A stretch of 64,000 bases of DNA from Lacipirellulaceae bacterium (lineage in GTDB: Bacteria; Planctomycetota; Planctomycetia; Pirellulales; Lacipirellulaceae). The stretch covers positions 372,001-436,000 of the forward strand of contig JAVJRG010000010.1 of NCBI GenBank assembly GCA_040218535.1, written 5' to 3'. Below, one piece after another: positions 6,701-57,839 of this stretch; within the stretch, counting starts at the first letter, position 1; each line of letters starts with the position of its first letter. The notes under the pieces are model-generated. The model was given only the letters and a program-made list of their open reading frames with translations, made no database searches and was not told the DNA's origin. The position numbers were made by a program, and so were the translations under genes.

Positions 6701-7574
6701 AACCGCTGTAGTTGTTCAGCAGTGCGGCTGAGCCAATTTCCACGCCGACTTCGAATTCGCGAATCTCGATAGTTCGTGTTGGAGCTAGGGTTGTTGCGGA
6801 GACGTTAGGGTCACCTTCTGAGAAGGGGCCGCCATCACCAGCAGCGGCTGAGGGAGTCAAAGCGCTCACCTCCGTCTCATCGCCTGCGATTCCACAACAG
6901 GAAGAGCAAGTACAGCCCGGGGGGTGGCCGCCACCAGTCTCGTCGGTGTGGTCTTCGGGGGCATGATCGGGGATGCCGTCACCATTGTGGTCGTGGTTAT
7001 CGTAGGAAGCAGGTGCTTCCGCCTCGACGGAAATGCGATGCTGGCCGGTCGTTGTACTCGCAGAGTAAGGCTCGACAGTGATCGACGGTTGGTTGGGTCG
7101 TATGATTGTTGCGTGCAGTCCTGTTTCTCCCAGCCACGCACTGACCGCAAGTCGAGGATCCTCTGCAACCGTACCAAGATAAGAACGATCGATGCCGTGA
7201 TCGACTTGCTCTAAGTTGCCGCTACCATCATCGACAAGAAACTTCGTGTTCTCACCAAAGATCGAATTCTTATTAAGTTCAAGCGTGAGGGTTTCTCCGG
7301 CATATTCGATCTCAACAGCAAAGCTTTCCGGCAAGCCTGTTGGAAGAACAAGGTCGGCGTACGACGCACCCACAACGTTCTCGGACGACAATGCTGGCGT
7401 TCTTGGAGCTTGACTTTGCTGCCACGCAAGAAAGTCAGACGCGAAGCTGACGCTTGCCTGGTCCGAGCTACTGAGGTCTGCCGTGGTAGCGTCGGCAGCA
7501 AGCAGGCGGCGTTCCTCTAAGGGCTCGAAGCGAAGCTGTAAATCTTCCTGTCGGCGTTTGCGGTTTGTGGCCAT
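3747..7574 (-). CDS. Giant exported zincin metalloprotease with LEPR-XLL N-terminus, malectin-like repeats and dockerin
   Basis: 1275 residues. Residues 17-26 (EPLEERRLLA) match the planctomycete LEPR-XLL export-associated motif. A pro-region runs to about 255 and includes a His/Cys-rich stretch (193-229, with CTCSSCC). The catalytic domain at about 265-480 has the zinc motif HEFGHSWNLGH (411-421, HExxHxxxxxH) and a Met-turn SIMSG (M458), as in reprolysin-like metzincins. A cadherin-like domain follows (505-590). Then come two tandem malectin-like repeats (about 597-752 and 753-908), a dockerin-type EF-hand pair (914-965), a beta-sandwich module (966-1155), PLEQPY (1173-1178) and a terminal helix. 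The C-terminal half is shared with the two genes immediately upstream, so the protease is one of three interchangeable cores. It probably acts at the cell surface; the substrate is unknown. Confidence 0.85.
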   Translation of the reverse strand: MATNRKRRQEDLQLRFEPLEERRLLAADATTADLSSSDQASVSFASDFLAWQQSQAPRTPALSSENVVGASYADLVLPTGLPESFAVEIEYAGETLTLELNKNSIFGENTKFLVDDGSGNLEQVDHGIDRSYLGTVAEDPRLAVSAWLGETGLHATIIRPNQPSITVEPYSASTTTGQHRISVEAEAPASYDNHDHNGDGIPDHAPEDHTDETGGGHPPGCTCSSCCGIAGDETEVSALTPSAAAGDGGPFSEGDPNVSATTLAPTRTIEIREFEVGVEIGSAALLNNYSGSTTQQKVDNAMSVAQGIPGNLDARFLRAAGIKHRLGTVIIRTGSDPFNVANGNDSAGLSAFRNYWNNNPQEVGNTHDLAVYHVRAAPSGLAYVNSVGGSFRYALSASNGPTSWADGTLAHEFGHSWNLGHVPSGTTHSADFYESRPRPNGNAAGAPADQDSRGISIMSGAGSRNIGRLSTGEANRVLDAKQNKLQFGDTVANEPEVAPFGWVDSVVANGSPVTIDVIANDHDANNDVLDAQLRDTVSFLGGTISLSQNTGPGGRNEIIYTPPASVSGDDFFHYTVVDSTGRTDWGAVYVRSTSITVDTSQTFYSYDPGTPSSPVFSSNDVQAVRITHETTGDITWSIGVLSEDRPNSGQNAYNRDFVRGFQDTTWSHKIASGIWRVTLNMSDPEFSFDNMFVDAEGERKVSDIDRPQGVNTTFNFEVTVNDGFLDLTFGDDDVTDKRWAVNRINLERIGDADYVVDLNADAYTYDFGTSTSPVFIGATPPAERITPDTFGDINWSDTVFAEDRAVGNDFNRDLVWGTNDTTWSHEIRDGVWRVKFNMSDANRNLDNMFVTAEGTHGISDIDHPIGVNNTLEFDVPVTDGTLDLEFGDADTSNKLWAVNRVVLTRLGDVPVSIGPGDFDENGQIDSDDLAQWQDDYGVNGDSDANSDGQSNGFDLLMWQRNYGAGISTTTTVLDSATGNGSFENQTGAVGLLVDETKHRVYTNNSAPANIPGWTAVVGSGVGGWDGDLTYVASDGDAYALANDSALVTLTSDILSYSVVEGDTLTVTVDVGSSNGVAHDYTAELILGSNTYDLGTISDGSIVSGGVGEQLNTRSFSYTASVTDAGTNPQLVLTIDNQGGSSQAFLDNVRLVVTGEPAGINDPGATVAALQLPPLEQPYIEGDLYVPESPSLDNSLVTLAVHAASIAPTAQPESESFVPSSTEAVITNSDFLPEVAAGDSAFDYALAEISEEVPNEALTDEPENFAEALDLAFQSL

Positions 7575-7702
7575 TTCTTCTCAGTTCTCTCGACCTTGTT
7601 TCGTTGAACAAGGGCTTGGTTGTTCTAGGGTGATAAGTCGTGTGTGGCCTCTTATCTCATTGCTGCGTTAGGTGTTGCGGCAAAAAGACCCTGATATCTC
7701 TT

Positions 7703-10700
7703 CTAAATCAATTCAGATAAGTGTTCAAAAGCTCTGTCCGTCGATTGGAATTCGGTTGGCCTCTCACCGGGCTCTGTTGCAGATCGCTTTAGGGTCATGC
7801 TTCTACCGACTCTCGTTTTCACGGATAGCGAGTCGACATCTTGGCTTTGATTCGTCAGCGTCGTGAAGTAAGAGTCCACGTGAGCTTCTTCCAATGAGAT
7901 TCTTTCCTTCTTCGGAAGCTCACCGATAGCGGTGCCTTCAGTGGCCAGCGTTTGGAAGCGGCTCAACACGGGCAAGTCGGGCTCGTCGAAGTAAGGTTGC
8001 TCGAGGGGAGGCGCTGGCGAAGGCTCGGACTGCACGGCAGCAACAACCGCTGCATTGCTTGACGAGCTGCTCGCAGCGGTGGCCGGTGGTCCCGTAATGG
8101 TTTCAACTTGGAACTGCACATTGTCCAGAAACGCTAGCGAAGAGCCCCCCGCGTTGTCCATGGTAAGGACCAACTGCGGACTCATACCAGCATCGGCAGC
8201 AGTCGCGGTGTAGCTGAAATTCAGCGTGTTGAGTGAGCCCCCGCCGCTAGAGACCAGCGTTCCGTCGCTAACCGTCCCCAAGTTGTAGGTATTGCCACCG
8301 AGGATGATCTCCGCGGCGAAGTCGTGAGCGATTCCATTACTGCTGCCCACATCAAATGAGAGCGTAAAGGTATCGTTCTCGGCGACGGAATGGGCGAACA
8401 CTTCCGAAGTAAGTGTCACTAATGCATTGTCGTTAGCGAGGGCATAGGCGGTACCGTCTGAGGGAACGAACGCGGAGGTCCTGGCCCAGCCGCCAACACC
8501 CGTGGTAAGTTGCGCGGTCCAGCCGGGAAGCGTCGCTGGGGCGGAACTATTCGTAAGCACTTGGGTGGCGTTGTTGACTAATCCTGTCGAGCCCGTCCAG
8601 TCCTCGAACGAGCCGTTGCCCGCGGTGTTGTCAATCAGCGTGGTGACGACAATCTCGCCTGCCCCCTTGTTACGCTGCCAAGAAAGGAAATCGAAACCAG
8701 CAACTTGGCGATCGAGGTCTACGTCGGCAGCACCGTCAGTGCCGTATTGCGCTTGCCAATCGGCGAGGTCCGCGCCGTTGACTTCCTGATCGGCATTAAA
8801 ATCACCAGGGAACAGCGGCAGATCGTTCACCTTCTCGAGGGAGATTCGATTGATAACCCAATCTGGCGTGGCCCCGCCATTGTCGGCGAACTGAAGGCTA
8901 AGCGAACCATCGGTCACCTGAACGCGGAAGACTTCCTCAACGAATTGACCGGCAGTGCTATCGAGGTCGGCGATTTTTACTTCGCCTTCGGCCACGATGG
9001 AAAGATTATCGTGAGCGTTGTCCCCATCGCCACTAGTGATCGTCACGTCCCAGATTCCGTTGGCGATCACATGCTCCAGAGTCGCGGAGCTGCTGGCACT
9101 AACAAAGTCGCCCGCGATACTTCCGCCCGTGGCTGTGCTGCCAGAGGATACGGTGCCGGTCCACTCGATGTCGCGATAGGTTTCGGGAGAAATCAGCTCG
9201 AAGCCAGGACCCACGGTCGAGTCCTTCGCACCCAAATCGTAGTCGTAGGCCGTCAGGCTCGTATCAACGATGGCGGGCGCATCGCCGAGACGATTGAGCG
9301 AGAGACTATTAACCACCCAGTTGGGATCGGCGCCACCGACATCACTGAAGGTAAGCTCCAATTGGCCATCGGTCACTACGGCTTGCCCTGTAACCACGGT
9401 GAAGACCGAGCCATCGCTATCAATGTCGACAGTGTTGCCAACTTCCAACCAACCGTTCTCAGCCACGACCCGCATATTCTCGTGTGCATTGCTATCTTCT
9501 CCCATCCGAAGCGTAACTTCCCACAGCCCGTTCTGTAGATTGTGTCGCAACGTGCGTTCGTTGGCGCTATGCACAAAGTCACGATCAAGGTCACCTGTGC
9601 CGGTGCCTGAATCCGCGGCATTCACCGCTTCGTCCCAGAAAATGTCGCCGGTGGTCAGCGGCGAAATTCGTGTCCTTCCGCTCTGCACAGGCGAGAGCGG
9701 TGTGCCGAAGTCGTAATCGAACTGTGTGGCACTCGTGTTGACGGTGACATTCTCGCCTTGGTCCGCGTCGTTCGACCAGACTTGCACCTCGGCGAGAGAC
9801 AAGATTTGGTTCTTCGTCTGCGTAAGCCGCACGTAACGAGCCCCTTGGACGGCATCCAGGCGTGTACCGCCGGACGTGGTCGAGCCATTGATGAGCAGCG
9901 CCCCACCGGGACCGATTTCGATCGTGGAGTAAGTTGGCTCGAAATCGGAGTAGTTGAACTGACGGCTCCACAACTGTGAGCCGCCGTTGTCAGGATCGTC
10001 GTCCCAGACGGAAACAACCACGTCATCGATTCGCGAGGCGGCGTCAGTTCGGTTGAAGACGGCTATTTGATCGATTTGTGCGGTCCGTTCCAAATCGACT
10101 TGCCACCAGATCGGATGCACTTGCAACGCCGAGGTGAAATTGACGATGGGGAGAACCACTCCGTCGTTGGCGTCGCTTGCAAATCCAGCTGCGGCGACGT
10201 CGCCATAGAAGTCGCCCGACTGCGACGCGGTGCCCGTTTGGGCTAGGTTAAGTGGTGAAGGCGCTGCGTCGCTCGATTTCACCCGTACTTCGGCGAGCGA
10301 AAGTTTGCGACTGGTCGGACCATTTTGTTGAATACGTACAACACGCCCCTCGTGGGCAGATGCCAGCCGCATCGTGTTGGAGTTTGGGGTACCGCTGCCG
10401 TTGATGGCCAACGAAGTGCCGATTTCTCCGCCATCAATCACCAGCGACTCACCCTGTCCCACGCTGCCGTTGGTGAAGTAAGTGTTCTCCCAGAGCTTGG
10501 TGCCTCCGCTGCTTGGATCGTCGTCCCAAACGGAAACGGTGAAGTTGCTCAAGTCGGTGAACTGGGAATCGTCGCGGTTGACGATCTCAATCTCCCCGAT
10601 GCTGAAGCCTTGGGCAAAGCGAACTTGCCACCAGTTGTTCAGCCCAGCTTGCGTTGAGGAGAGCGTCGCGGCGTCACCATCGTTTGCATTCTCCGCGACG

Positions 10701-13700
10701 AAGCTGCCATCGGTACTCGATTGCGAGACGACACCGTCGGTAATCGCCAGATTCGTCTCGCCGTAGCCGTAGACCTTGATTTCACCCAGTGCGAGTTGAT
10801 CGTTGCCCGCGTTATTCTGGCCAAGAAGCTGAACCCTCACGAACCGACCGGTGATACTCTTCAAGCTCGTGCTGCCGTCATTGCTGAACGAATCCGGATG
10901 GATCGAAAGGCTTTGTCCAGCTTGGGGCGATTGTCCGCTGGTGAAATAATCTTGATTCCAAAGCTCGGTGCCTCCTGAACGCGGGTCCGCATCCCAGACC
11001 GACACACGGAAGTTGCTCATCCGATCCGGCTGCGAAGTAGGCGGGCTCAGTTTAATGCTGTGCAGTGGAATCTGCTCACCGAGGTCGACCTGGATCCAAC
11101 TCTCCGCAAGGTCGCCCGTCTCGTTATTATCGCTAAGGTTTCCATTCAGTACGCCGGGGGCAGCGGCACTGGTGTTCTCGCTTAGTGAAAGCTCTGCCGT
11201 TGCTGTGCCGGTAACGTCGCGCACAGCAGCCCCTCGGACTCCATCCCCTTCAATGAGGTAGAACCGATCAAGATAGGTGTTGAGGCGCCCTTGATTCTCG
11301 AAGGTAATGGTCGCGGTTGCCGCCGAGGGGCCTGTCGTGAAAGTCAGTTCGTCGTAGCCTGACTCCCAATCTTTGTTGCCAAATTGAATGCCAACGGTCT
11401 CTCCCCCAATCGATGAAGCCCGCATCGTGAGGAGATCGTCCGTGGGCGGCGCTTCATTGAACAATCGGAACGCACCGAGACCGATATTCGCTGCATTTGC
11501 GCCTGTGACAGAAACATAAATGTCATGCACACCCGAGACCTCGGCGAGATTCACTCGTGTCACTCGCCAACGGTCAAGTGTGGTGCCGCTGTTTAATTCG
11601 CTGAAGTCAGCAATGATGGGGCCGGTCGAGCTATCAATTCGGACCTGAACGCCAACACCATCGACGGCTTCTCCAAATCCGTCGAGCGGGTCTTCAATAT
11701 GCAGAAGGTCAATGATGTCGTACTGTCCAGGGTCACCGAAATCGACATCGTCGTAGCGCACCCACTCGCCCGCACCAAGGCCCGTAACGAGGCCTTCATT
11801 GCGATGAGTTCCCGTGCTCACGCTGCCGGACACTCCATCAAACTGGTTGCCGTCCACAAGGCGATTGACCACTCTCGCGGTGACACCGACCGTGTAAGTC
11901 GTGTTGGGGGTAAGGCCTGTGAAAGTCCTTTCCATGGCAGCCCCCGGTGTGAATTCGACGCTCTGAGTGCGGAAGGTCCCCGTGAGTGAAGTGCCTGAGG
12001 AAGCCAGATTCCAGGAATTACGATCCGACGAATTGGGTGAACCAGAGACGGTCGTCCAGTCACCGATTCCTTCAAGAAACTGACCATTGCGGTACAGATT
12101 CGTACCAGGCAATGGTTCCCAGGCGAATGCGGGATTCGGCTCCGTCGTGAAGTTGTGACCCGCGGTCCAGGGCGTCGCACCGAACTCAAAAGCCCCGGCA
12201 TCGGGGGCAGCACCAACGTAGCCATCGTTAATGCTGGGGATTATGATCCCCGCATCGATCGCTCCAGAGCTAGCAGCAAGGGTGTAGTCGTCGCCAAAGA
12301 AATTCGTGAAATCGGAAGTCGAGTAGTTGTAGTTACCGCGCACATCAACGCCAATCGCTTCCATCCGATCCACATTGATCTGCAGATTATTGTTGTAGCG
12401 AGTTTGAATCGCCTCGCGCGAATCAAGGTTTCCTGAGGGCGCCGACGACTCGCTTGTGATGAACGTGTTGTGATACGCTTGCCGGAAGTCCAATCCCGAA
12501 GCTCTGAATACTGGCCGATTGATCGTCGTATTCGTAAAGTCGTGAAACAGATTGTGATGAATGACTAGGTTGTTGTTTTTTCCATAGAAGGCTTCAAAAA
12601 TCCCCCGCGCGGCCGTGTCGCGAAAGACGTTGTGGTGAACGATCGAGTAGCTCGTGTTACCGTTGCCACCGTCCGAATCAAAAACGCCCGTGTCCCAGGA
12701 GAGTTTGCCGCCATCTTCAAAGATGTTGTAAGCAATCTCGCTGCGTGTGGGATAACCATCAAATACGCTGCGGGCGAATTTGCTGACGGTGTTGTGGCTG
12801 AACAGGAGCTGATCGGCACCCGAGGCACTAATCGTTCTTGAAGTGCCGAAGTAACCAATGTCATGAATATAGTTGTTGACGATCTCGTTGCGAAAACCGC
12901 CTACGGTGACAAAGGAGCCCCAAACATCGCTGAATTCATTGTCACGAAGAACGTTGAAGTCACCGTTTAGAATGAAACGCCCAAAGTTACCGCGATCGTA
13001 CGCGTAGAAGCGGTTGCCTTCGTAAAGATTGTTGTCGGTGTTACTGTCGGTTTCGATACTCACACCACGGAATTCAATGTCCTTGACGTGGATATGGTCG
13101 CGACCCCGGGCGTCGAATCCATAGCCGCGCTGTTTGAACTCAAATTCGAGATTGGCGTCGGTGTTCGGGTTGTAGCCGGGGCCCATATCACCGAAGTGAT
13201 AGTAGAGCCGACCGTTGCTATCGTCCTTGTACCACTCGCCCGCCTGATCGACGGTTTGCAGCGCATCGAAAATGTAGTAGCCGTTGGTTTGCTTTTGTGA
13301 GATGACTCCGACGGGCGTGTCATAGGTGATCGTACCATTGGAGGAGAAGTCCGTGATGGTGCGTTCGACGATGATGTAGTCGTGCGTGTGGAATTTGATC
13401 CGCGCGCCGTTCCAAAAGTCATTGCCGAAACCGCCGAGGTCGTCGACCTGGAACGAGCTCGCATTGTTCGCCAAGCGACCATTGGGCAACTGCCCCCAGT
13501 CGTCAATGTCCAGAGGGTCGTTCTCACCCCCTTGGCGACCGATATGTTTCAGCTCGCCATTGACGAACACCGTATTGGCATCGCCGTCACTGATGTTACT
13601 GGCATTGCCCGGAGCCGTGGCGTACCAGATGTCACCACTATGTTGCGTCCACGTCCCCGTGATGAGGTCGCCACCCGAGATGACCACGTCTTCGCTGTTG

Positions 13701-14026
13701 TAAGCACTGAACGTGATCGGATTGGACGAGTTCCCTGAGCGTGGCAGGTCGACCTCCTCGCGGTAAGTCCCGCCGCGAATCAGCACGGTGTCACCAGCTT
13801 GAGCGGCGTCGGCCCCCGCTTGGATGGTTGCAAACGCACTGCCAAGGGCCGTACCGTTGTTACTGTCGCTGCCGTTATCCCCATCGACGTAGAAAGTCGT
13901 GAGCAGTTGACGCTGTTCGAGCGTCTCAAGGCGAAGCCTGCGCTCTTGCACTCGCTGTTTCTTTTTGCGACGCGGCGCCTTCGTGAGCTGCTGCGTGGCA
14001 AGTCTAAACCGATGCTGTAATTTCAT
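7703..14026 (-). CDS. Giant exported right-handed beta-helix protein with discoidin-like, malectin-like and dockerin modules
   Basis: 2107 residues. A basic N-terminus carries LETLEQRQLL (34-43), a LEPR-XLL-type motif. Residues 45-615 form a parallel beta-helix that starts with YVDGDNGSDSNNGT and continues with many N/D-rich coils such as IVHHNVF and LVIHHNLFHD, the pattern of pectate-lyase or chondroitinase-like polysaccharide enzymes. A CBM6-like module is at about 742-857. Three F5/8-type (discoidin) domains span about 945-1090, 1091-1252 and 1260-1420, each with WWQV or WIQVDL and a SVWD(D/A)DP strand. Two malectin-like repeats (about 1430-1735), a dockerin (1739-1790), the shared beta-sandwich (1791-1975) and PLEQPY (2007-2012) complete the protein. 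It is probably a surface glycan-binding or degrading protein. No catalytic residues can be assigned from sequence alone. Confidence 0.85.
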   Translation of the reverse strand: MKLQHRFRLATQQLTKAPRRKKKQRVQERRLRLETLEQRQLLTTFYVDGDNGSDSNNGTALGSAFATIQAGADAAQAGDTVLIRGGTYREEVDLPRSGNSSNPITFSAYNSEDVVISGGDLITGTWTQHSGDIWYATAPGNASNISDGDANTVFVNGELKHIGRQGGENDPLDIDDWGQLPNGRLANNASSFQVDDLGGFGNDFWNGARIKFHTHDYIIVERTITDFSSNGTITYDTPVGVISQKQTNGYYIFDALQTVDQAGEWYKDDSNGRLYYHFGDMGPGYNPNTDANLEFEFKQRGYGFDARGRDHIHVKDIEFRGVSIETDSNTDNNLYEGNRFYAYDRGNFGRFILNGDFNVLRDNEFSDVWGSFVTVGGFRNEIVNNYIHDIGYFGTSRTISASGADQLLFSHNTVSKFARSVFDGYPTRSEIAYNIFEDGGKLSWDTGVFDSDGGNGNTSYSIVHHNVFRDTAARGIFEAFYGKNNNLVIHHNLFHDFTNTTINRPVFRASGLDFRQAYHNTFITSESSAPSGNLDSREAIQTRYNNNLQINVDRMEAIGVDVRGNYNYSTSDFTNFFGDDYTLAASSGAIDAGIIIPSINDGYVGAAPDAGAFEFGATPWTAGHNFTTEPNPAFAWEPLPGTNLYRNGQFLEGIGDWTTVSGSPNSSDRNSWNLASSGTSLTGTFRTQSVEFTPGAAMERTFTGLTPNTTYTVGVTARVVNRLVDGNQFDGVSGSVSTGTHRNEGLVTGLGAGEWVRYDDVDFGDPGQYDIIDLLHIEDPLDGFGEAVDGVGVQVRIDSSTGPIIADFSELNSGTTLDRWRVTRVNLAEVSGVHDIYVSVTGANAANIGLGAFRLFNEAPPTDDLLTMRASSIGGETVGIQFGNKDWESGYDELTFTTGPSAATATITFENQGRLNTYLDRFYLIEGDGVRGAAVRDVTGTATAELSLSENTSAAAPGVLNGNLSDNNETGDLAESWIQVDLGEQIPLHSIKLSPPTSQPDRMSNFRVSVWDADPRSGGTELWNQDYFTSGQSPQAGQSLSIHPDSFSNDGSTSLKSITGRFVRVQLLGQNNAGNDQLALGEIKVYGYGETNLAITDGVVSQSSTDGSFVAENANDGDAATLSSTQAGLNNWWQVRFAQGFSIGEIEIVNRDDSQFTDLSNFTVSVWDDDPSSGGTKLWENTYFTNGSVGQGESLVIDGGEIGTSLAINGSGTPNSNTMRLASAHEGRVVRIQQNGPTSRKLSLAEVRVKSSDAAPSPLNLAQTGTASQSGDFYGDVAAAGFASDANDGVVLPIVNFTSALQVHPIWWQVDLERTAQIDQIAVFNRTDAASRIDDVVVSVWDDDPDNGGSQLWSRQFNYSDFEPTYSTIEIGPGGALLINGSTTSGGTRLDAVQGARYVRLTQTKNQILSLAEVQVWSNDADQGENVTVNTSATQFDYDFGTPLSPVQSGRTRISPLTTGDIFWDEAVNAADSGTGTGDLDRDFVHSANERTLRHNLQNGLWEVTLRMGEDSNAHENMRVVAENGWLEVGNTVDIDSDGSVFTVVTGQAVVTDGQLELTFSDVGGADPNWVVNSLSLNRLGDAPAIVDTSLTAYDYDLGAKDSTVGPGFELISPETYRDIEWTGTVSSGSTATGGSIAGDFVSASSSATLEHVIANGIWDVTITSGDGDNAHDNLSIVAEGEVKIADLDSTAGQFVEEVFRVQVTDGSLSLQFADNGGATPDWVINRISLEKVNDLPLFPGDFNADQEVNGADLADWQAQYGTDGAADVDLDRQVAGFDFLSWQRNKGAGEIVVTTLIDNTAGNGSFEDWTGSTGLVNNATQVLTNSSAPATLPGWTAQLTTGVGGWARTSAFVPSDGTAYALANDNALVTLTSEVFAHSVAENDTFTLSFDVGSSNGIAHDFAAEIILGGNTYNLGTVSDGTLVSSGGGSLNTLNFSYTATAADAGMSPQLVLTMDNAGGSSLAFLDNVQFQVETITGPPATAASSSSSNAAVVAAVQSEPSPAPPLEQPYFDEPDLPVLSRFQTLATEGTAIGELPKKERISLEEAHVDSYFTTLTNQSQDVDSLSVKTRVGRSMTLKRSATEPGERPTEFQSTDRAFEHLSELI

Positions 14027-14175
14027 CTCTCGTCTGTTCCGAAAGTGAGAGGTAGGTTGGGCTGCCGCCGGTATCTCAGCCGTCCGTATCGTTTGCTGAA
14101 GGTACGGTCGACATTGCTGCCCAGATTGCTAATCCCGCCTGATTCGAAAGCGCCCCAAGACTTTCGGACAGATCG

Positions 14176-17100
14176 TTAGAGTAGGTCGAACACTTCATCC
14201 AGCAGTTGGTAAACGTCCGCGGCACTGCCGGATTCATGCGGTGCTTCCATTCTAGTCAAAATCCCCGTTTCGCCACGGGATTGGGCCAAATCGAGCCATT
14301 CTTGTTCGGAAAACCGCAGCTGGAGTGGCCATTCGTATCGTTTGTAGCCCTTTTCTATTGAAAGAACGTCTTCTGCGGCGATTTCGACGGCAGGCGTCCC
14401 CTCCGAAGCAAGCATCGTGAGGCTTACTGAAGTTGAGAATCGTGGGGCCGCTAAGAATGTCTCCCCAGCAACGCCTTGGTCGAAGTAAACGGGTTGCTCT
14501 AAGGGTAAAGCGACTCGGGCTGCCGGAAACTCAATGGCTTCAACGGCGACCGGCTCATTCGCGGTACTTGCGGCTACCACAGAACTCGATTGACTACTGG
14601 AGCCCCCAGGAACCCCAGCCACGCTTACGGCTTCAAAATGCACATTATCTAAGTAGGCCTTCGAGGAACCTCCTTGGTTCTCAATGGTGAGAATTAACTG
14701 AGGATGGTGGCCGGCGTCTGCCGCCGTGGCCGTGTGGCTAAAGCTAATGGTATTGAGCGTCTCACCCGCTCCGCCAGAGACAAGTGTCCCATCGGAGATG
14801 GTCCCTAGATCGTAGGTGTTCGCTCCGAGAACGATCTGAGCCTGGTAATCGTGTGCGACGCCGTTACTGCTACCGACATCAACCGAAACATTGACGGAGT
14901 CTCCTTCGGCGACACTGTGAGAAGTGAATGCGTCCGAGGTGAAGGTGACCACGGCACTGTCATTTGCCAAGGCGTAAGCGTTGCCGTCGGAAGCCACATA
15001 AGCCAGCTCGCCATCCCAACCACCAATGCCATTGCTGACGGTCGCGGTCCACCCATCAATCGAAGCCGTCGCCGTGTTGTTGGTATAAACACGATGCTTG
15101 AGCGGATCGACCAACAAGCCTACGGCATCCGTTTGATCCTCAAACGAGCCGTTCCCTAGCGAGCCGTCGATCAGCGTCGTCCGCGTGATCACGCCGGCAC
15201 CAAGCGTCTGCTGCCAGGCGAGAAAGTCGAAGCCAGAAACGGAACGATCGAGGTTGGCATCGGCAGCCCCGTCGGTTCCGTATTGATCGGCCCATAGATT
15301 GAGATCCGCTCCTTCAACCATGCTGTTCGTGTCGAAGTCGCCAGCATAACCGGGGAGATCAGAAACCTTCTCGAGAGACAGCCGATTCAGTACCCACTCA
15401 TCGGTGTCGCCCCCTAAATCGGAGAAGGTCAGTGAAAGTTGCCCATCCTCGACCCTCACGCGGAAAGTTTGCTCCGCAAACTCGCCGAGGGCCGTGTCGA
15501 GATCGTCGATTTGCAGGAGACCTTCTGCTGCAACCGACAGGTTATCGCGGGCGGAATCGGCATCTCCTGTGCTGATTGTCACATCCCAAATGCCGTTGGA
15601 GATGCGATGTTCAAGCTTTGCGGCTTGAGAACTGTGAAAAAAGTCTCGCTCTAGGGAGTTCGCATGATCTCGATCAGTGCTTTGGACCGAACCAGTCCAG
15701 GAGGCAAATGGCGAGCTGGTGGTGGTGAGGAGATCGAACCCTGCTTCCAGTGGCGAAGAGAGCGTTCCCAGGTCGTAGTGGTACTCGGTGGCATTGAGGT
15801 CGACTGGGATTTCTTCGGGCTCGACATCGGCGAAGGGGTTCGCCGCGATCGTGGCAATCGCGTGATGTTGGGCGTGCGCCCAAGCTTCGCGAACCGCAGC
15901 GCTAACGTTGGGGATGCCGTGTCCGAAGGTGTTGTCCCGTCCTGCCGCTCCGACATCGGTCACGGTATCCGCCAACAACTGCCGCACTTCACCCGCTTCG
16001 AGTTCTGGGTTCACACTCCAAATCAATGAGGCGTAACCCGCCATGACGGGATTAGCCGCCGAGGTACCCCCAAAGGTACCAGCACTGCCATCAGGTCGCG
16101 TCGAGGGCACATTGGTCGGTACGGCAAATGTCAAGTTTGGCCCAAAATTGGAATAGCCTGCCAGAAAAACGCTGCTGGCGTTGCGCTGACCGTGAACGGT
16201 CGTGCTGTTATATTGCAAGGCGCCAATCGCCATCACGTTGTCGTAGGTGCCTTCCAACCGGGCCATCCCGCCGGAGAGACCATCCGGGTGTGAAGTGATC
16301 GCAATGTCTTGGCTGCCATTTCCCGCGGCAATGGCGAACAAGGCCTTGTCCGCATTGTTAGCAACTCGCGACTCTTCAAGGATGTTCAGCCAGTACTCAC
16401 CCTGGATGCCACCTTGGTAGACGACGCGCGTCGCCGAGATGCTATTCAGATGGTCGAGCCCCGCCTGGATCGCCGTGTTGATGCCCACGTTTTCCGGCCC
16501 GTAGACGTCGAGCACCAGGACCGGGCTCTCCCAGTTGAGTCCTGCGATTCCTTGGCCGTCGTTGGGGGTCGAAGCCATCACCGAGACCGCCTGGTAACCG
16601 TGGTCTGAGCCGTTGGCATTGCCAAAAAAGCTCAACCGGTTCGAGGAAAGATCCGGATAGTTCGCCGGATTGGTCTGCGTGATGCCTGTGTCGAGCGAAA
16701 CGAGCAAAACATCATCGGACCCGCGCGTAAAGCGCCACGCATCGGTGACATCGCCGATCGTTAGATCCCATTGCGAAGTAAAGCGTGGGTCGTTCGTGCG
16801 CGTTTGCAACTCCGTGACCGTCGTGCCGCTCGGCCCACTAAATTGCAAACGTTCGATTCCTTGGAAGTAGATTTCGCGACCATCGTTCAAGCGGAGATAG
16901 TCGAATGCCGTGCCGTCATAAATCGCCTGTGATGTGACCATGCTGTTCGCAACGTGGGAGCCCACGGCGGCACCGTTGAGACTGGCCACAGCCGAGGTAT
17001 CAAACCCAAAAAACAGCGTATCAGTACCGCCACCACCGTGGTAAATCGAACCAGGAGAGAGCGTGTTGCTAAACAGGAACGTCTCCGCCTGGAAGTCACC

Positions 17101-17595
17101 CGTCACGGTGGCCACGGGCAGGACCTCAAGAATCAGCGAAGGCGAAATCGTCGAAATCCCATCCGAAGTCGTAGCAACGGCGAAAATCTCTTGAGTTCCC
17201 GCCAATGTCGAGTAGCCGTCGAGATTGATTAGCTCGTTACTGGCGGTGGCTCCCGAAAACTCTCCCAGTTTATAGAACGCATCGTCCTCTCGAGCGTAGA
17301 GATCGACTCCCAGAAGGTCGCCACTGACGACATCGAGATCATAATCGAGTGTGATTGCCGAGGACTCGAAGACCGTCAACGAGGAGTCGTCCCCCGAAGC
17401 ATCAGCGATACCAAACGAAAGAAAGTCAGCCGCCAACGGCAAGCGAGCTTCCAGATGTTCAACACCCGAGATGACTAGTCGCCTGGGCCGCGACTGCCCT
17501 CGCCTTTGGAGCCGGCGAAGCAGTGGGAAGCGTTGGAGGAGAGTAAAAGGGCCCACTTGGCCTGCCAGCGGGCGGTGAGGACGTCGGTTATCCAT
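14176..17595 (-). CDS. Giant exported subtilisin-like protease with LEPR-XLL N-terminus and shared C-terminal cassette
   Basis: 1139 residues. A basic N-terminus ends in HLEARLPLAAD (47-57), a LEPR-XLL variant. The S8 peptidase domain (about 265-570) shows the catalytic Asp in VSLDTG (D302), His in DHGYQ (H332), the oxyanion Asn in AAGNG (N426) and Ser in GGTSAANP (S512). The His motif lacks the usual HGTxVA form but keeps HG. Downstream are one malectin-like repeat (596-745), a dockerin (750-800), the beta-sandwich module (803-992), PLEQP (1031-1035) and a final amphipathic segment ending DVYQLLDEVFDLL. This is the first gene of the minus-strand block 17595-1745. Intergenic gaps of 149 and 128 bp follow, so co-transcription is plausible but unproven. 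Confidence 0.87.
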   Translation of the reverse strand: MDNRRPHRPLAGQVGPFTLLQRFPLLRRLQRRGQSRPRRLVISGVEHLEARLPLAADFLSFGIADASGDDSSLTVFESSAITLDYDLDVVSGDLLGVDLYAREDDAFYKLGEFSGATASNELINLDGYSTLAGTQEIFAVATTSDGISTISPSLILEVLPVATVTGDFQAETFLFSNTLSPGSIYHGGGGTDTLFFGFDTSAVASLNGAAVGSHVANSMVTSQAIYDGTAFDYLRLNDGREIYFQGIERLQFSGPSGTTVTELQTRTNDPRFTSQWDLTIGDVTDAWRFTRGSDDVLLVSLDTGITQTNPANYPDLSSNRLSFFGNANGSDHGYQAVSVMASTPNDGQGIAGLNWESPVLVLDVYGPENVGINTAIQAGLDHLNSISATRVVYQGGIQGEYWLNILEESRVANNADKALFAIAAGNGSQDIAITSHPDGLSGGMARLEGTYDNVMAIGALQYNSTTVHGQRNASSVFLAGYSNFGPNLTFAVPTNVPSTRPDGSAGTFGGTSAANPVMAGYASLIWSVNPELEAGEVRQLLADTVTDVGAAGRDNTFGHGIPNVSAAVREAWAHAQHHAIATIAANPFADVEPEEIPVDLNATEYHYDLGTLSSPLEAGFDLLTTTSSPFASWTGSVQSTDRDHANSLERDFFHSSQAAKLEHRISNGIWDVTISTGDADSARDNLSVAAEGLLQIDDLDTALGEFAEQTFRVRVEDGQLSLTFSDLGGDTDEWVLNRLSLEKVSDLPGYAGDFDTNSMVEGADLNLWADQYGTDGAADANLDRSVSGFDFLAWQQTLGAGVITRTTLIDGSLGNGSFEDQTDAVGLLVDPLKHRVYTNNTATASIDGWTATVSNGIGGWDGELAYVASDGNAYALANDSAVVTFTSDAFTSHSVAEGDSVNVSVDVGSSNGVAHDYQAQIVLGANTYDLGTISDGTLVSGGAGETLNTISFSHTATAADAGHHPQLILTIENQGGSSKAYLDNVHFEAVSVAGVPGGSSSQSSSVVAASTANEPVAVEAIEFPAARVALPLEQPVYFDQGVAGETFLAAPRFSTSVSLTMLASEGTPAVEIAAEDVLSIEKGYKRYEWPLQLRFSEQEWLDLAQSRGETGILTRMEAPHESGSAADVYQLLDEVFDLL

Positions 17596-53021: not shown

Positions 53022-54143
53022 CTACTGCGCAGAAATACTGTTTCCATCTGAACTGAATTCGATTCTTTGGTGTTCTTCTAGTGGGAAGATGGCTAGAGGA
53101 ATCCCTTCTTTCCACAGAGCTTCTTTAAGTAGCCGAACATCGTTGTAGGCATCGGGATAGATAAAAGCGAGTACGGACTCGTGATTAGAACTCCGATTTC
53201 GCAATCGTTTCTTAAACTTGGAGTTAGGTAGCAGTGCTTGTTCAATTGGCTGTCCAACTTCCTCGTTGACGGGAAGGATAGCACCAACCATTTGGACCTT
53301 CACGTTGTTCCCAGCTAGTACAGGAGACACGGTAATCGGTACTTCTACTTTTCGTTCTAGATAAAGTCTAAAGCGAAAACCGTCAATCGGCCCAACAGTA
53401 TCGACAGCGTGCCCTCTTTGCATTACTCCTTGCGTGAGGTACGGCTTTCTCAGTCGTTGCATCTCTTGCTTCAATTCATCATATGGAATCACCCCCAGCT
53501 TACCATGACGCAACCGCACTATGATCGCTTCTTTCACTTCGCGTGCTAGAGGCGTCGGCATGCAAACAATCTCTTCAGACTCTTCGGTCTGACCGACTAA
53601 TGAATACTGCTGTTCAGTTAGTTTTTTTAGCTCAATCTTGGCCTTGAGAAGCTCCCGCTGAACGTCGAACTCCTCCTGGGATTTCTCGTCAAGTCGTGCG
53701 CGACGGGCTGCCAGGTCTTGCTCGTGTAAGGACTGCATCTCCACGAGCTTCTGTCTTTCAGCCTCCAAGAGCTTTCGTTCCCGAGCGACTGCGATGGTTC
53801 GCCGCGCTTGTTCGGCATTCTTGCGGCTTGCGAAAGCGATCTCTCGGCGTATTTGAGCCAGTTCTTCAGCTTCGCTCTGCGTCTCGTCCGGTTCGGGTTC
53901 TGCCTTCGGCTGGATTTCTTGCGGCGGGGGCGTAGGTTCGTAGGTAACCTCATGGAGTTGTGTCTGTTCTTCGGGCGTCTCTTCCTCGGGCGAAGCCATC
54001 AACGAACCTTGCGAAGCCCGCACACCGACGACCATCACCAGAATGATGAGGATTCCGACAATGTTCGCCACAATGTCCAGGAACGAATCTTCACCTGGCA
54101 TGCCGTCATCAGATTCGTGGTTGGCACGACTAGCGCGTGACAT
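53022..54143 (-). CDS. Single-span MotB/ExbD-like protein of a motor-type operon
   Basis: 373 residues. One membrane span (about 21-43) contains an Asp (D23, in EDSFLDIVANIVGIL) at the position of the proton-carrying Asp of ExbD/TolR/MotB. Then come a Pro/Glu-rich stretch (50-90), a long coiled coil (90-185) and a C-terminal alpha/beta domain (about 195-365) with VCMPTPL, VGPIDGFRFRLYLERKVEVP and an IAFP/LAIFPLEE end. Its start overlaps the previous gene by 14 bp, so the three genes are translationally coupled. It probably pairs with the ExbB-like channel at 56136-57839. The C-terminal domain is not one I recognise. Confidence 0.75.
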   Translation of the reverse strand: MSRASRANHESDDGMPGEDSFLDIVANIVGILIILVMVVGVRASQGSLMASPEEETPEEQTQLHEVTYEPTPPPQEIQPKAEPEPDETQSEAEELAQIRREIAFASRKNAEQARRTIAVARERKLLEAERQKLVEMQSLHEQDLAARRARLDEKSQEEFDVQRELLKAKIELKKLTEQQYSLVGQTEESEEIVCMPTPLAREVKEAIIVRLRHGKLGVIPYDELKQEMQRLRKPYLTQGVMQRGHAVDTVGPIDGFRFRLYLERKVEVPITVSPVLAGNNVKVQMVGAILPVNEEVGQPIEQALLPNSKFKKRLRNRSSNHESVLAFIYPDAYNDVRLLKEALWKEGIPLAIFPLEEHQRIEFSSDGNSISAQ

Positions 54144-56139
54144 TCGATTGACCTCCCGGAGAGCGCACGGCTGTCAGTGGCATCTCGACATCCACACCGC
54201 TCCCTTCAAGCAGCTTCGCCAGCTTCATCGCCTCACGGTCCGCACCAGGAGCAACCTTCACACGCAATACGGGCTTCCAGTGCATGCTGCGGCCAGCAAA
54301 GCCCCAATCTTGCGTGCGTTGCCGAATGCTGCCCGCGAAGTCATTTATGAGCTTGTTCGTCGGTTGATCGAAGCTGATAAACTTGGTTGATCCAAAGCTC
54401 TGCTTGTCGGGAGAGGGTAGGATATCGAGTCCGTCCTTGCGAACGTAGACCGAGATGGGACGGCGCATTGGCACGGACTGATTACGCGATTTCTGCAACG
54501 CCCAATCGGAGCCGCGCCCCGCGGCAGCACTTTGAACTTCGGTCGTACTAGAAAAGGTTGCGCTCACGCTCTGTGATTGCGAATTCGTGTTACCCGCTTG
54601 AATGGCACCACTTGAGGTTGCTGAGGCCTGCGACGAGGCACTCCCCGAACTCGAGGATCCCGAACCGGCAGACCCACTCGATGCACCACCCGCTGTCGAA
54701 TCTTCGGCTTGCGCGCCGCCAGGTACACCTTTTCCTACGGAGCCACTCGAATCGCCGCCGCTAGAATTCGCTGCACTCGAATCGCTGCCCGCCGTGCCTT
54801 GCCCCAGAGCATCGCCTTCCGAGCCCGATTGGTTCCATGTCGAAGTCGCAGCACCGTTTCCGCCTGCCGCGGAGTCAGGACCTCCATCCCCGGCGCCTGC
54901 GGAGAATTCGCCGCTCGCGCCCTGGCGAGACTCACCCAGTTGGCCTAAACCTTCGCTTGAATTACTGCTAGTCCCTAGTGAGCCGCTACCGTACCGGTCG
55001 CCACCGCCAGCAGTGGCACTATAGCGGTCCGAACCGCCGCCAGAAAAATCGCTGCCGGATCCCGCACCGTATCCGCCACCGTAGCCATTGCCTCTTCCGC
55101 CATATCCCATTCGGGCACCAATTTTTGCGTGCGTCATGTAGCGCCGTGGGGCAGCCTGAGCTAGTCGCTCCTGCTGCAATCTGGCGAACTGGACCGCATG
55201 ATCTTGCTGGCTCGCCAAGATCGGATTAGCTGTAGGAAACACGACTCGTTTCTCTTCACTCAAGAATTCATAACCGTACGAGACATCTGCAACCTTCAGC
55301 GCTGCCAAAACCTTGACATAGAATTCACGCCCCGAGGGACGAACAATAATCAACGGATAAGGCTCCAGCGGTTCATCACCGGTTTGCACCGCCTGCTTCT
55401 CGTAGTGATTTTCCGTAGCACGAATCGCAGCGGCCAAGGCATTGCCCGAACGGATCGGACGAACGAAGTCCTTCTCGGTAAGCCGCGTTCCACCCGGCTG
55501 AATGACGACAGCATTCTCGGTACACTCAATAAATACAGGTGGCCGAAAAGTGCCGTTCGGTCCGCGATAAGGAACGATCGCGTAACTCTTCGGCCTTGTT
55601 GCCTCCTGCTGCATTTCTTCGACTTGCTCTTTGGTATCCTCAACCAGTTCCTGCAGCCGCAAGAGTTCTCGCTTCGCCTGCTCGTTGTCGACCTCTTGGT
55701 CTTCTTCGGTGGCTTCCAATTGCAGATTGTTGAGATAGAGTTCAGAAACCGCATGCTCGAGTCTGCGGGCATGCTCTTCGAGATGAGCCAGTTTCTCTCT
55801 TTCTTCGGACAAGCGTTTCTCGATCGCTTTTTGATCGCGAAGTTGCTGCTCCCGCCGCGCCCGCAACTGCTCCAATTCGCTCCTTGCGGGCGGCCCCACG
55901 GGCTTTTCATCCCTGGGCTGTACCTGCTGGGGCTGAGTCGTAGTCCTCTCAACCGGTTTGGCTTTGACCGCCACTTGTGGTTTAGCCGCAGGCTGCTCAT
56001 CGGCCACCACCACCACCCGCGAGGCCTGCTCCGCCAGCACCACCAGCAGCACTAACAGCGCCCCCATCGTGCAAAGCAACACCGCCAAGAAAGGAAACAG
56101 ACTGACGGCTTTCGAATTATCCCGGACCGCGCGGCTCAT
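54130..56139 (-). CDS. Single-span coiled-coil protein with Gly/Ser-rich region, second ExbD-like partner
   Basis: 669 residues. One membrane span (about 12-38, SLFPFLAVLLCTMGALLVLL) lacks the Asp seen in its partner. A Pro/Lys region and coiled coil (about 70-175) follow, then a domain with FIECTENAVVIQPGG and YPLIIVRPSGREFY (about 200-290). A long Gly/Ser/Asn-rich low-complexity segment (about 345-565) precedes a C-terminal domain with RPISVYVRKDGLDILPSP and PVLRVKVAPGADREAM, ending in ...EMPLTAVRSPGGQSNVTR. It overlaps the upstream ExbB-like gene by 4 bp. Function unknown; context implies an energised envelope complex. Confidence 0.7.
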   Translation of the reverse strand: MSRAVRDNSKAVSLFPFLAVLLCTMGALLVLLVVLAEQASRVVVVADEQPAAKPQVAVKAKPVERTTTQPQQVQPRDEKPVGPPARSELEQLRARREQQLRDQKAIEKRLSEEREKLAHLEEHARRLEHAVSELYLNNLQLEATEEDQEVDNEQAKRELLRLQELVEDTKEQVEEMQQEATRPKSYAIVPYRGPNGTFRPPVFIECTENAVVIQPGGTRLTEKDFVRPIRSGNALAAAIRATENHYEKQAVQTGDEPLEPYPLIIVRPSGREFYVKVLAALKVADVSYGYEFLSEEKRVVFPTANPILASQQDHAVQFARLQQERLAQAAPRRYMTHAKIGARMGYGGRGNGYGGGYGAGSGSDFSGGGSDRYSATAGGGDRYGSGSLGTSSNSSEGLGQLGESRQGASGEFSAGAGDGGPDSAAGGNGAATSTWNQSGSEGDALGQGTAGSDSSAANSSGGDSSGSVGKGVPGGAQAEDSTAGGASSGSAGSGSSSSGSASSQASATSSGAIQAGNTNSQSQSVSATFSSTTEVQSAAAGRGSDWALQKSRNQSVPMRRPISVYVRKDGLDILPSPDKQSFGSTKFISFDQPTNKLINDFAGSIRQRTQDWGFAGRSMHWKPVLRVKVAPGADREAMKLAKLLEGSGVDVEMPLTAVRSPGGQSNVTR

Positions 56140-57839
56140 GCAGCGTAGCTCTGAGGCTCCTCACCGTCGGAGGGCTCGCCGAGATCGCTCAACGTGATCT
56201 CGGGAGCGCTGGTCACCGGTTGGCCTAACCGTGTGTTCAGTAACTGCAGTGTCGCCGAAAGGCTCGCCACGGTCTGCTCGAAGTGATGAGCCCCGGCCAG
56301 AGAGGAGAGATTGCTGTTGAGTGCCTCTTCCAACTTGCGAACCTGCCCGGTCGCTTCGACCACTTGCAGCAGCACTTCGCCCTGCTTGATCAACTGCTGC
56401 TGCTGAGAAACGGTCGTTCCGGCAGCCTCAACCAGTGCCGCTTGCATGTCCTTGAGGACTTGCTCGCTGCGGGCAATGAGCGTCTCTTGCCGTTCTGCCG
56501 CCACTAGCACGGCTTCGCCGAGTGCTCCTTCCACATCAGAAAGATGTTGGCGGTTTTCGTCGGCCAGTTTCGTTTCCGAAGCGACCAGCGTCTCCGTGTG
56601 TTGTTCATAGGCTTCAGCGAGAGCGGAAACATATTGGACAGCCCCTTGCTCAAGCACTTCCGTAAGTTTCATCGTGCCTGAGTTCAGCACGTCGGCATGC
56701 TGGTGAATCCCTTCGTTCATCACGGTGGAATGTTGCTCAAGCCCCTCGTTCAGGATTTCCGCATGACGAATGAGCGTCTGCTCAAGTTGCTCAGCGAAGC
56801 GGCCAACCCCCTCATTCAGGCCGACAGCGTGGGTTTTCAACCCGCGTGATAGTCCGTTCGCTAAAGTCGAGCTAATTGTCTCTGCCGTCGAGTCCGCGAG
56901 ACTGGCCCACTTTTCGTTAGTAGCTTTCAACGAGTCGCTCAGCAAGTCGGTTTGCTGACGGCAAGAGTTCTCAACGGTCGCCAGCAACTGTTCGGAGGCA
57001 CGCTGCACGGACGCCATGTGAGGATCGTGCGCTGCACCATACTGGCGGAAACGTCCAACGAGTTGTTCGTCAGCTTTCTGATCGACCGTGGTCAGGAGCG
57101 CCACCTCGACGCGCTCGACAATAAACTTTGCGAACAGCAGAATCATCGACAACGTCAACGCTAACGCGGTGGTATCAAACGCCACGCTCAAACCGGCAAT
57201 GACCACCGGCAGCGACTGCTCCATTTCACTCCCGGAGAGTTTGGCAATCGCTAAGGTAATGCCAATGACGGTCCCCAAGAATCCAAGGATCGGGATCGTC
57301 GAAGCGATGATCCTGACTGACGCATAGCTGTGATGCATACGCCCCAAGTCGGAATCTTGCAGGTGCCGTAGATGATCTTCCAAGGCGTCCGCCGATTTGC
57401 GTTTGTCAACGTATTGCAGAGCATTCGTAAGGCGTCTCGCTAGGTATGTGTCACAAAGACTAGGATTCCGTTGCTTAAGCTGACTCAAGATAGAGGCGGC
57501 CTCTTCCACTCGTTCACCACCGTCAGGCACAAGCAGTGGCAAGTTCAGCTTTTCAAGAGAACCAAATTGCAGCAACAAACCTAACAGTTTGATCAACAAA
57601 GCCGCGGTACCCACGCAGAACAGCGCCACCGTGACATTCTCAATCCAGTGGTTATTGAGATACCGCTGAATGAAGCTCCCCTCGGCCGCTGGACGCACAA
57701 CGATCGCATAGATGGCTAGATAAGCTAGCCCACCCCAGACAACCGCCTGCTTGAGCAACCATTCGGAAATGTTCGAAATACGCGACACGACGACCTGTCC
57801 TTTCCTAGGGGTCCTTCCCGGCGGCGATTTCCTCGCCAC
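56136..57839 (-). CDS. MotA/TolQ/ExbB-type proton channel protein with long C-terminal tail
   Basis: 567 residues. Four membrane spans at about 28-48, 68-91, 176-198 and 210-240. The last two (RIIASTIPILGFLGTVIGITLAI and PVVIAGLSVAFDTTALALTLSMI) carry the MotA/TolQ/ExbB family signature GFLGTVIGI and the AF-TTA helix. A 327-residue cytoplasmic tail (241-567) follows, made of alpha-helical repeats rich in Glu, Ala and His (for example NEGLEQHSTVMNEGIHQHADVLNSG), far longer than in ExbB or TolQ and comparable in plan to the tail of ZorA. First gene of a three-gene overlapping operon. It probably forms a proton- or sodium-driven pore. Confidence 0.82.
   Translation of the reverse strand: MARKSPPGRTPRKGQVVVSRISNISEWLLKQAVVWGGLAYLAIYAIVVRPAAEGSFIQRYLNNHWIENVTVALFCVGTAALLIKLLGLLLQFGSLEKLNLPLLVPDGGERVEEAASILSQLKQRNPSLCDTYLARRLTNALQYVDKRKSADALEDHLRHLQDSDLGRMHHSYASVRIIASTIPILGFLGTVIGITLAIAKLSGSEMEQSLPVVIAGLSVAFDTTALALTLSMILLFAKFIVERVEVALLTTVDQKADEQLVGRFRQYGAAHDPHMASVQRASEQLLATVENSCRQQTDLLSDSLKATNEKWASLADSTAETISSTLANGLSRGLKTHAVGLNEGVGRFAEQLEQTLIRHAEILNEGLEQHSTVMNEGIHQHADVLNSGTMKLTEVLEQGAVQYVSALAEAYEQHTETLVASETKLADENRQHLSDVEGALGEAVLVAAERQETLIARSEQVLKDMQAALVEAAGTTVSQQQQLIKQGEVLLQVVEATGQVRKLEEALNSNLSSLAGAHHFEQTVASLSATLQLLNTRLGQPVTSAPEITLSDLGEPSDGEEPQSYAA

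Follow-up and report, generated by a model that had tools for sequence, protein, structure and literature searches.

A core planctomycete operon for a MotA/TolQ/ExbB-type ring protein and two unlike single-span partners

Described motors and their resemblance to the A-B1-B2 operon

In models of five-to-two motors, the two axle acids are taken to be equivalent and to act in alternation. Motors in which one ring protein is served by two unlike B-type proteins have already been described. In the AglRQ/S gliding motor of Myxococcus the ring protein AglR has two different MotB/TolR-like partners, AglQ and AglS, both of them MotB homologues with the Asp, and the accessible text of that paper states the formation of an AglQ-AglS heterodimer as unknown (PMC9389320). 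According to the accessible part of PMC12204202, motors with heterologous tolR-like pairs have been found in the PVC phyla, and so have paired vWA proteins in which a pore helix contains Asp. A broad survey of MotAB systems does not use the word heterodimer in its accessible text (PMC12505986). The statement of the preliminary description of this locus that known stators employ one B-type protein is thus not supported, and the novelty claimed there was overstated, because published motors already combine two different B proteins. What stands of that claim is the partner devoid of Asp: neither an Asp-free axle partner nor co-switching of ring and B1 was found in the open-licence papers searched, which were covered by title and the beginning of the abstract.

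The window, i.e. the whole analysed stretch of 64,000 nucleotides, harbors on its minus strand three open reading frames arranged head to tail, namely A (56136-57839, 567 aa, GTG start), B1 (54130-56139, 669 aa) and B2 (53022-54143, 373 aa). Their coordinates yield overlaps of 4 bp between A and B1 and of 14 bp between B1 and B2, as had been claimed, and the key codons of all three agree with the translation of the window. With ExbB-ExbD and TolQ-TolR the trio shares the pore threonines of the ring, an Asp on a putative single-span axle protein (B2) and an ExbD/TolR-like domain (in B1). It differs from them by two different candidate axle proteins, one of which normally lacks the Asp, by an Asp at ring position 222 where they have Ile or Leu, and by a long tail and a long Gly/Ser arm. 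AglRQ/S is similar in combining one ring protein with two different partners, but both Agl partners carry the Asp, as far as the accessible text tells, whereas B1 of the window has Ala (PMC9389320). The PVC motors come from the same group of phyla and likewise combine one ring gene with two unlike B genes and the idea of an axle reaching outwards; in the accessible text, however, the spans of the paired vWA proteins contain Asp and TPR and vWA genes often adjoin (PMC12204202), while a search for widely conserved neighbours detected none here. Zorya ZorA-ZorB resembles the locus in the long tail of its ring protein and provides the best PADLOC matches of A, but the operon comprises two B proteins, is a core element and has no ZorC, ZorD or ZorE among 10 flanking proteins.

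The assignment of A to the MotA/TolQ/ExbB type holds, since residues 133-243 match Pfam MotA_ExbB (PF01618) with an E-value of 1.6e-12 and 47.7 bits, compared to a curated cut-off of 22.9. In a 34-row alignment Pro183, Gly189, Thr190, Asp222, Thr223 and Thr224 are invariant. The pore spans TM3-TM4 (residues 172-243; 57111-57326, minus strand) include Thr190 and Thr224, which align with the pore threonines of TolQ/ExbB, and Asp222 (codon 57174-57176, minus strand) of the motif AFDTT, which in rows read by eye is aligned with their Ile or Leu. The spans are followed by a cytoplasmic helical tail (residues 241-567; 56139-57119, minus strand). This long tail is present in the window as described before, but it varies among relatives, because A there ranges from 427 to 640 aa by open reading frame, a range which takes in one divergent ring protein (A', see below) and one pore-dead copy.

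B2 carries the Asp23 already pointed out (codon 54075-54077, minus strand), which is invariant in 37 of 37 aligned sequences together with Asp19, Ser20, Phe21, Asn27, Val29 and Gly30. In the AlphaFold model (mean pLDDT 82) the transmembrane helix comprises residues 18-46 with the motif DSFLDxxxNxVGI (54006-54092, minus strand), and a periplasmic globular domain is predicted at residues 206-364 (53052-53528, minus strand). No ExbD or TolR is among the best 50 VIA-align rows for the B2 model, and the domain is not visibly ExbD-like. A sequence search of the PDB with B2 gave 35 matches, mainly to coiled coils.

B1, which was delineated from its reading frame, two alignments and an AlphaFold model, is the single-span partner whose span was claimed to be free of Asp, and indeed Ala19 (codon 56083-56085, minus strand) is found at the aligned place. 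The modelled transmembrane helix (residues 15-47; 55999-56097, minus strand) contains Gly26, invariant in 39 sequences (consensus LFPFLAVLLCTMG) and located at +7 from residue 19, the same spacing as that of Gly30 from Asp23 in B2. Profile comparison (probability 96, E-value 2.4e-9), with part of the signal coming from the helix that follows the span, shows B1 and B2 to be relatives; the spans are aligned such that Ala19 of B1 occupies the place of Asp23 of B2. Ala19 is also aligned with the ExbD Asp by profile, but that match is not significant: against a profile of 22 ExbD sequences, B1 and B2 reach E-values of 0.079 and 0.25, respectively. Both proteins stay below every cut-off in a Pfam and NCBIfam scan, with no Pfam ExbD match and no Pfam match to the OmpA-like peptidoglycan-binding domain typical of flagellar MotB, and Foldseek found no PDB match at an E-value of 0.001 for either model.

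The B1 model has a mean pLDDT of 68 with two confident domains, at about residues 200-292 and 556-652, and a Gly/Ser stretch in between. Residues 185-294 superpose best in VIA-align on TolR (5by4, Z 6.4, rmsd 4.7, 87 residues aligned), followed by three ExbD entries (Z 5.7-5.9, rmsd 2.4-2.7, 68-71 aligned; 8p9r: Z 5.9, rmsd 2.6, 70 aligned). These ExbD chains comprise 72-75 residues, so that nearly the whole domain is covered; the Z-scores are middling, as ribosomal proteins score 4.6-5.3 on the same region. The modelled domain (residues 200-292; 55264-55542, minus strand) thus resembles ExbD/TolR in fold. It is succeeded by a low-confidence linker (residues 342-524; 54568-55116, minus strand), where pLDDT is below 50 nearly throughout and which is Gly/Ser-rich by the composition of residues 340-545, and by a predicted C-terminal globular domain (residues 556-652; 54184-54474, minus strand) with invariant Trp612, Gly613 and Trp621. 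In VIA-align the latter reaches Z 5-7 with YqgF, Pelota and kinases, which is taken as a common arrangement. Among the best 60 of 173 matches of a PDB sequence search with B1, coiled coils prevail.

Distribution and genomic surroundings

A-B1-B2 is a core operon of the planctomycete order to which the window belongs. Of 59 genomes searched, the genome of the window among them, 58 contain a relative of B2, including all 48 of good quality (48/48); the single genome without it is 58 % complete. Outside the order, the operon occurs in one more family of the class (f21). When 294 genomes drawn from the phylum were searched with B1, 43 matched at an E-value of 0.001, with strong matches (E-value below 1e-40) in 5 genomes of the order and 15 of f21, although at least one f21 genome (G163) is among the non-matching genomes listed. 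The weaker matches lie in other families of the phylum and, where read, represent short look-alike systems.

The three genes are neighbours again in most of the 39 genomes examined, and in 32 of 34 measured pairs A and B1 share exactly 4 bp; the trio is therefore more than a chance arrangement. The spacing of B1 and B2 is more variable, ranging from a gap of 314 bp to an overlap of 68 bp, where the overlap depends on the start codons chosen. A ring-protein match occurs in 36 of 40 stretches from these 39 genomes, a count which takes in a pore-dead copy (L037) and an A' on the opposite strand (L075). As to the other four stretches, L061 is one piece of a genome that has its A and B1 on L062, L065 starts at a contig end, and for L059 and L067 an A' is found elsewhere in the genome. 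A' denotes a divergent ring protein in which AFN replaces AFD and a His is present in the pore span. The occurrence of the two partners in genomes without a channel gene, raised in the preliminary description as a counter-argument, was looked for and is not seen: in G036, G052 and G053 no standard A adjoins the B1-B2 pair in the same orientation, yet each genome contains A'.

No further widely conserved neighbour gene was detected in 67 loci, where the family next in frequency after A, B1 and B2 is present in 17, and the surroundings consequently give no function; nor was a phenotype found in the papers searched. The main text of a study on essential genes of P. limnophila names, in its accessible part, no MotA, TolQ, ExbB, ExbD or proton channel (PMC10632474). 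Two other ring genes in the genome of the window (L001:485-1501, L004:1764-2898) are each followed by an unlike ExbD pair, and both members of these pairs keep the Asp. Unlike pairs are hence ordinary in this genome, and the partner without Asp is the unusual part.

Ring type and residue 19 of B1

Four of the first 38 relatives have a B1 with Asp19, and at these loci no normal A is found beside B1, but the genomes contain A'. When 296 genomes of the order were searched with a profile of A', 19 matched at an E-value of 1e-150 or better, the next match being at 2e-74 with matches listed down to 1e-60. A DNA pattern for Asp19 also matches 19 of 296 genomes, of which 16 were accepted; G470 and G432, whose B1 reads Ala, and G392, where the start of B1 was not recovered, were set aside, and a backward control of the pattern gave 3 matches. 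In the 19 genomes with A', residue 19 of B1 is Asp in 17, Glu in one (G369) and Ser in one (G361), i.e. acidic in 18 of 19. By comparison, where the locus contains a standard A, not one of 120 distinct B1 proteins is acidic at this position. These 120 comprise 119 from a set of 142 distinct B1 proteins plus G531, a genome in which a standard A coexists with an A'-like protein and whose B1 has Ala. The set was obtained from 208 loci with readable B1 by removal of near-identical (over 98.5 %) and short copies; for 15 of its members the locus is devoid of A. Residue 19 is Ala in 119, Asp in 18, Gly in two, and Thr, Ser and Glu in one each, the equality of the 119 Ala and the 119 with standard A being coincidental. 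A single case of Asp19 in the absence of A' was encountered, in the 77 % complete genome G385.

When the motif columns are left out of the B1 tree, the acidic residues occupy five of its regions (parsimony score 7), and the position of the f19 group has a support of 0.25. A' forms a single clade (20 of 20, support 1.0). Standard A together with a non-acidic B1 also occurs in genomes of families f1, f2 and f13. A search up to an E-value of 1e-20 recovered no intact standard A from the 13 genomes that have A' and lie outside genus g2. A pore-dead A adjoins an acidic B1 in seven A' genomes, six of genus g2 and G386. The pore spans of the g2 proteins are 24-32 % identical to those of the window, compared to 64-88 % in seven other A of the family, while the tail end is conserved to the same degree, with values of 58-63 % and 48-85 %, respectively. 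In G386, which belongs to another family, the pore-dead A is in addition shortened and located next to Asp19. Most simply, this is read as a replacement of the ring, with B1 changing along with it. In g2 the replacement perhaps followed lateral arrival of A', as suggested by the grouping of the g2 A' with that of G036, a genome of another family.

The case for a one-for-one exchange of charges is weakened by exceptions. Asp222, which is replaced by Asn in A', is kept by 114 of the 119 standard A with a B1 read; in the other five it is missing (3 Ala, 1 Gly, 1 Asn) although their B1 retains Ala, so that a direct charge exchange with residue 19 is not established; a strict swap is further weakened by the A' of G361 with Ser19. 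In distant short relatives the ring motif FDTT occurs together with an acid on the B1-like span (L129, L133, L303) or with Ser (L126, L127, L128), and L135 combines FHTT with Asp in both spans.

Several related genes deserve mention in their own right. Ring genes with destroyed pore motifs but an intact reading frame are located beside B1 at L037:10253-11788, in the g2 relatives L136-L140 and at L293:431-1501; the C-terminal part of the tail is kept in the g2 copies, and such genes are perhaps retained as a structural part. G531, which also holds the standard operon, encodes its A'-like ring protein at L278:1120-2313, and the adjoining open reading frame looks like the end of what we take to be an RNA polymerase beta-prime subunit. 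Several planctomycete families contain a further A-B1-B2-like system, which is shorter (L126, L128, L354 of G036, L355/L303 of G359), with Ser or Asp on its B1-like span.

Possible mechanism and alternative explanations

The conserved order A-B1-B2 and the co-switching argue for two different B-type partners of one A. As the most likely reading, with a probability of roughly 0.6, we regard a motor of the A ring with an unlike pair of axle helices. The product of the operon would be driven by the proton motive force in the manner of MotA/TolQ/ExbB, with A forming a pentameric ring by analogy and one helix each of B1 and B2 inserted into its pore as an unlike two-helix axle, presumably 1:1 and rotating. 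Asp23 of B2 would carry the proton. Position 19 of B1 would be level with it; as the residue found there is neutral in the normal case, one axle acid would be left in the standard motor, whereas the axle with the alternative ring A' would usually have two. B1 could pass the motion outwards by way of a coiled coil, the ExbD-like domain, the flexible Gly/Ser arm and the terminal domain; from this arm and from the core distribution, a transfer of force to the outer envelope may be surmised. Rather more tentative, and in our view a possibility to be held with some doubt, is the extended proposal of a natural single-acid rotary motor, with one proton-carrying helix in a heterodimeric axle and an Asp-bearing ring, that was repeatedly turned into a two-acid motor by a new ring, with Asn instead of Asp222 and a His in its pore span, together with an acid at position 19 of B1, some lineages keeping pore-dead copies of the old ring. 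If true, a conserved one-acid motor and its close two-acid relatives would provide natural parts for testing the assumption of equivalent axle acids, and planctomycetes would gain a core energised machine.

That B1 works in this motor is argued for by the co-switching of its residue 19 with the ring type, which falls short of proving a B1-B2 heterodimer. The axle might instead be a homodimer of B2, with B1 placed outside the ring as a transducer similar to TonB or TolA. The build of B1 from a span, a flexible linker and a terminal domain corresponds to that described for transducers, and even a B1 residue that meets the ring from outside might vary with the ring type. We nevertheless consider this arrangement unlikely, since the span of B1 aligns with that of B2, an ExbD/TolR-like domain succeeds the long helix of B1, and the switching residue coincides with the position of the proton-carrying Asp. 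Furthermore, many of the transducers in the accessible text of PMC12204202 possess a SHLS motif with His, while the B1 span of the window is free of His. The link between A' and acidic B1 might also reflect mainly shared ancestry or chance and be silent on contact: A' is one clade, the Fisher test of the association ignores relatedness, the f19 group is weakly placed (0.25), and G361 as well as the five ring proteins without Asp222 are exceptions. Against this stand the five tree regions with acidic B1 and the parsimony score of 7, the presence of standard A with non-acidic B1 in f1, f2 and f13, and the pore-dead A beside acidic B1 in two families, which render such an origin of the pattern quite improbable.

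An ordinary but divergent ExbBD or TolQR with the known Ton or Tol-Pal tasks would account for the common superfamily and for the ExbD/TolR-like domain of B1. It is, however, a poor candidate, with five Pfam ExbD matches elsewhere in the same genome, no widely conserved neighbour family (next best in 17 of 67 loci) and one partner without Asp. For a Zorya-like phage defence system speak the PADLOC matches of ZorA to A (1.2e-12) and, weakly, of ZorB to B2 (0.0025). Membership in Zorya was rejected and a system of this kind is extremely improbable, given an NCBIfam ZorA score of A far under the cut-off, the missing ZorC, ZorD and ZorE among the 10 flanking proteins, and the presence of B2 in 58 of 59 genomes, i.e. 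a core distribution instead of the patchy one expected of a defence system; the preliminary description, which had set the locus apart from Zorya, was right in this respect. One ZorF3 match (1.5e-4) falls on an Ala-rich flanking protein, presumably a biotin carrier, and is taken as chance.

Elsewhere in the window, three very large minus-strand open reading frames (1275, 2107 and 1139 aa) extend over positions 3747-17595; their C-terminal segments are similar by eye, and their products may be secreted.
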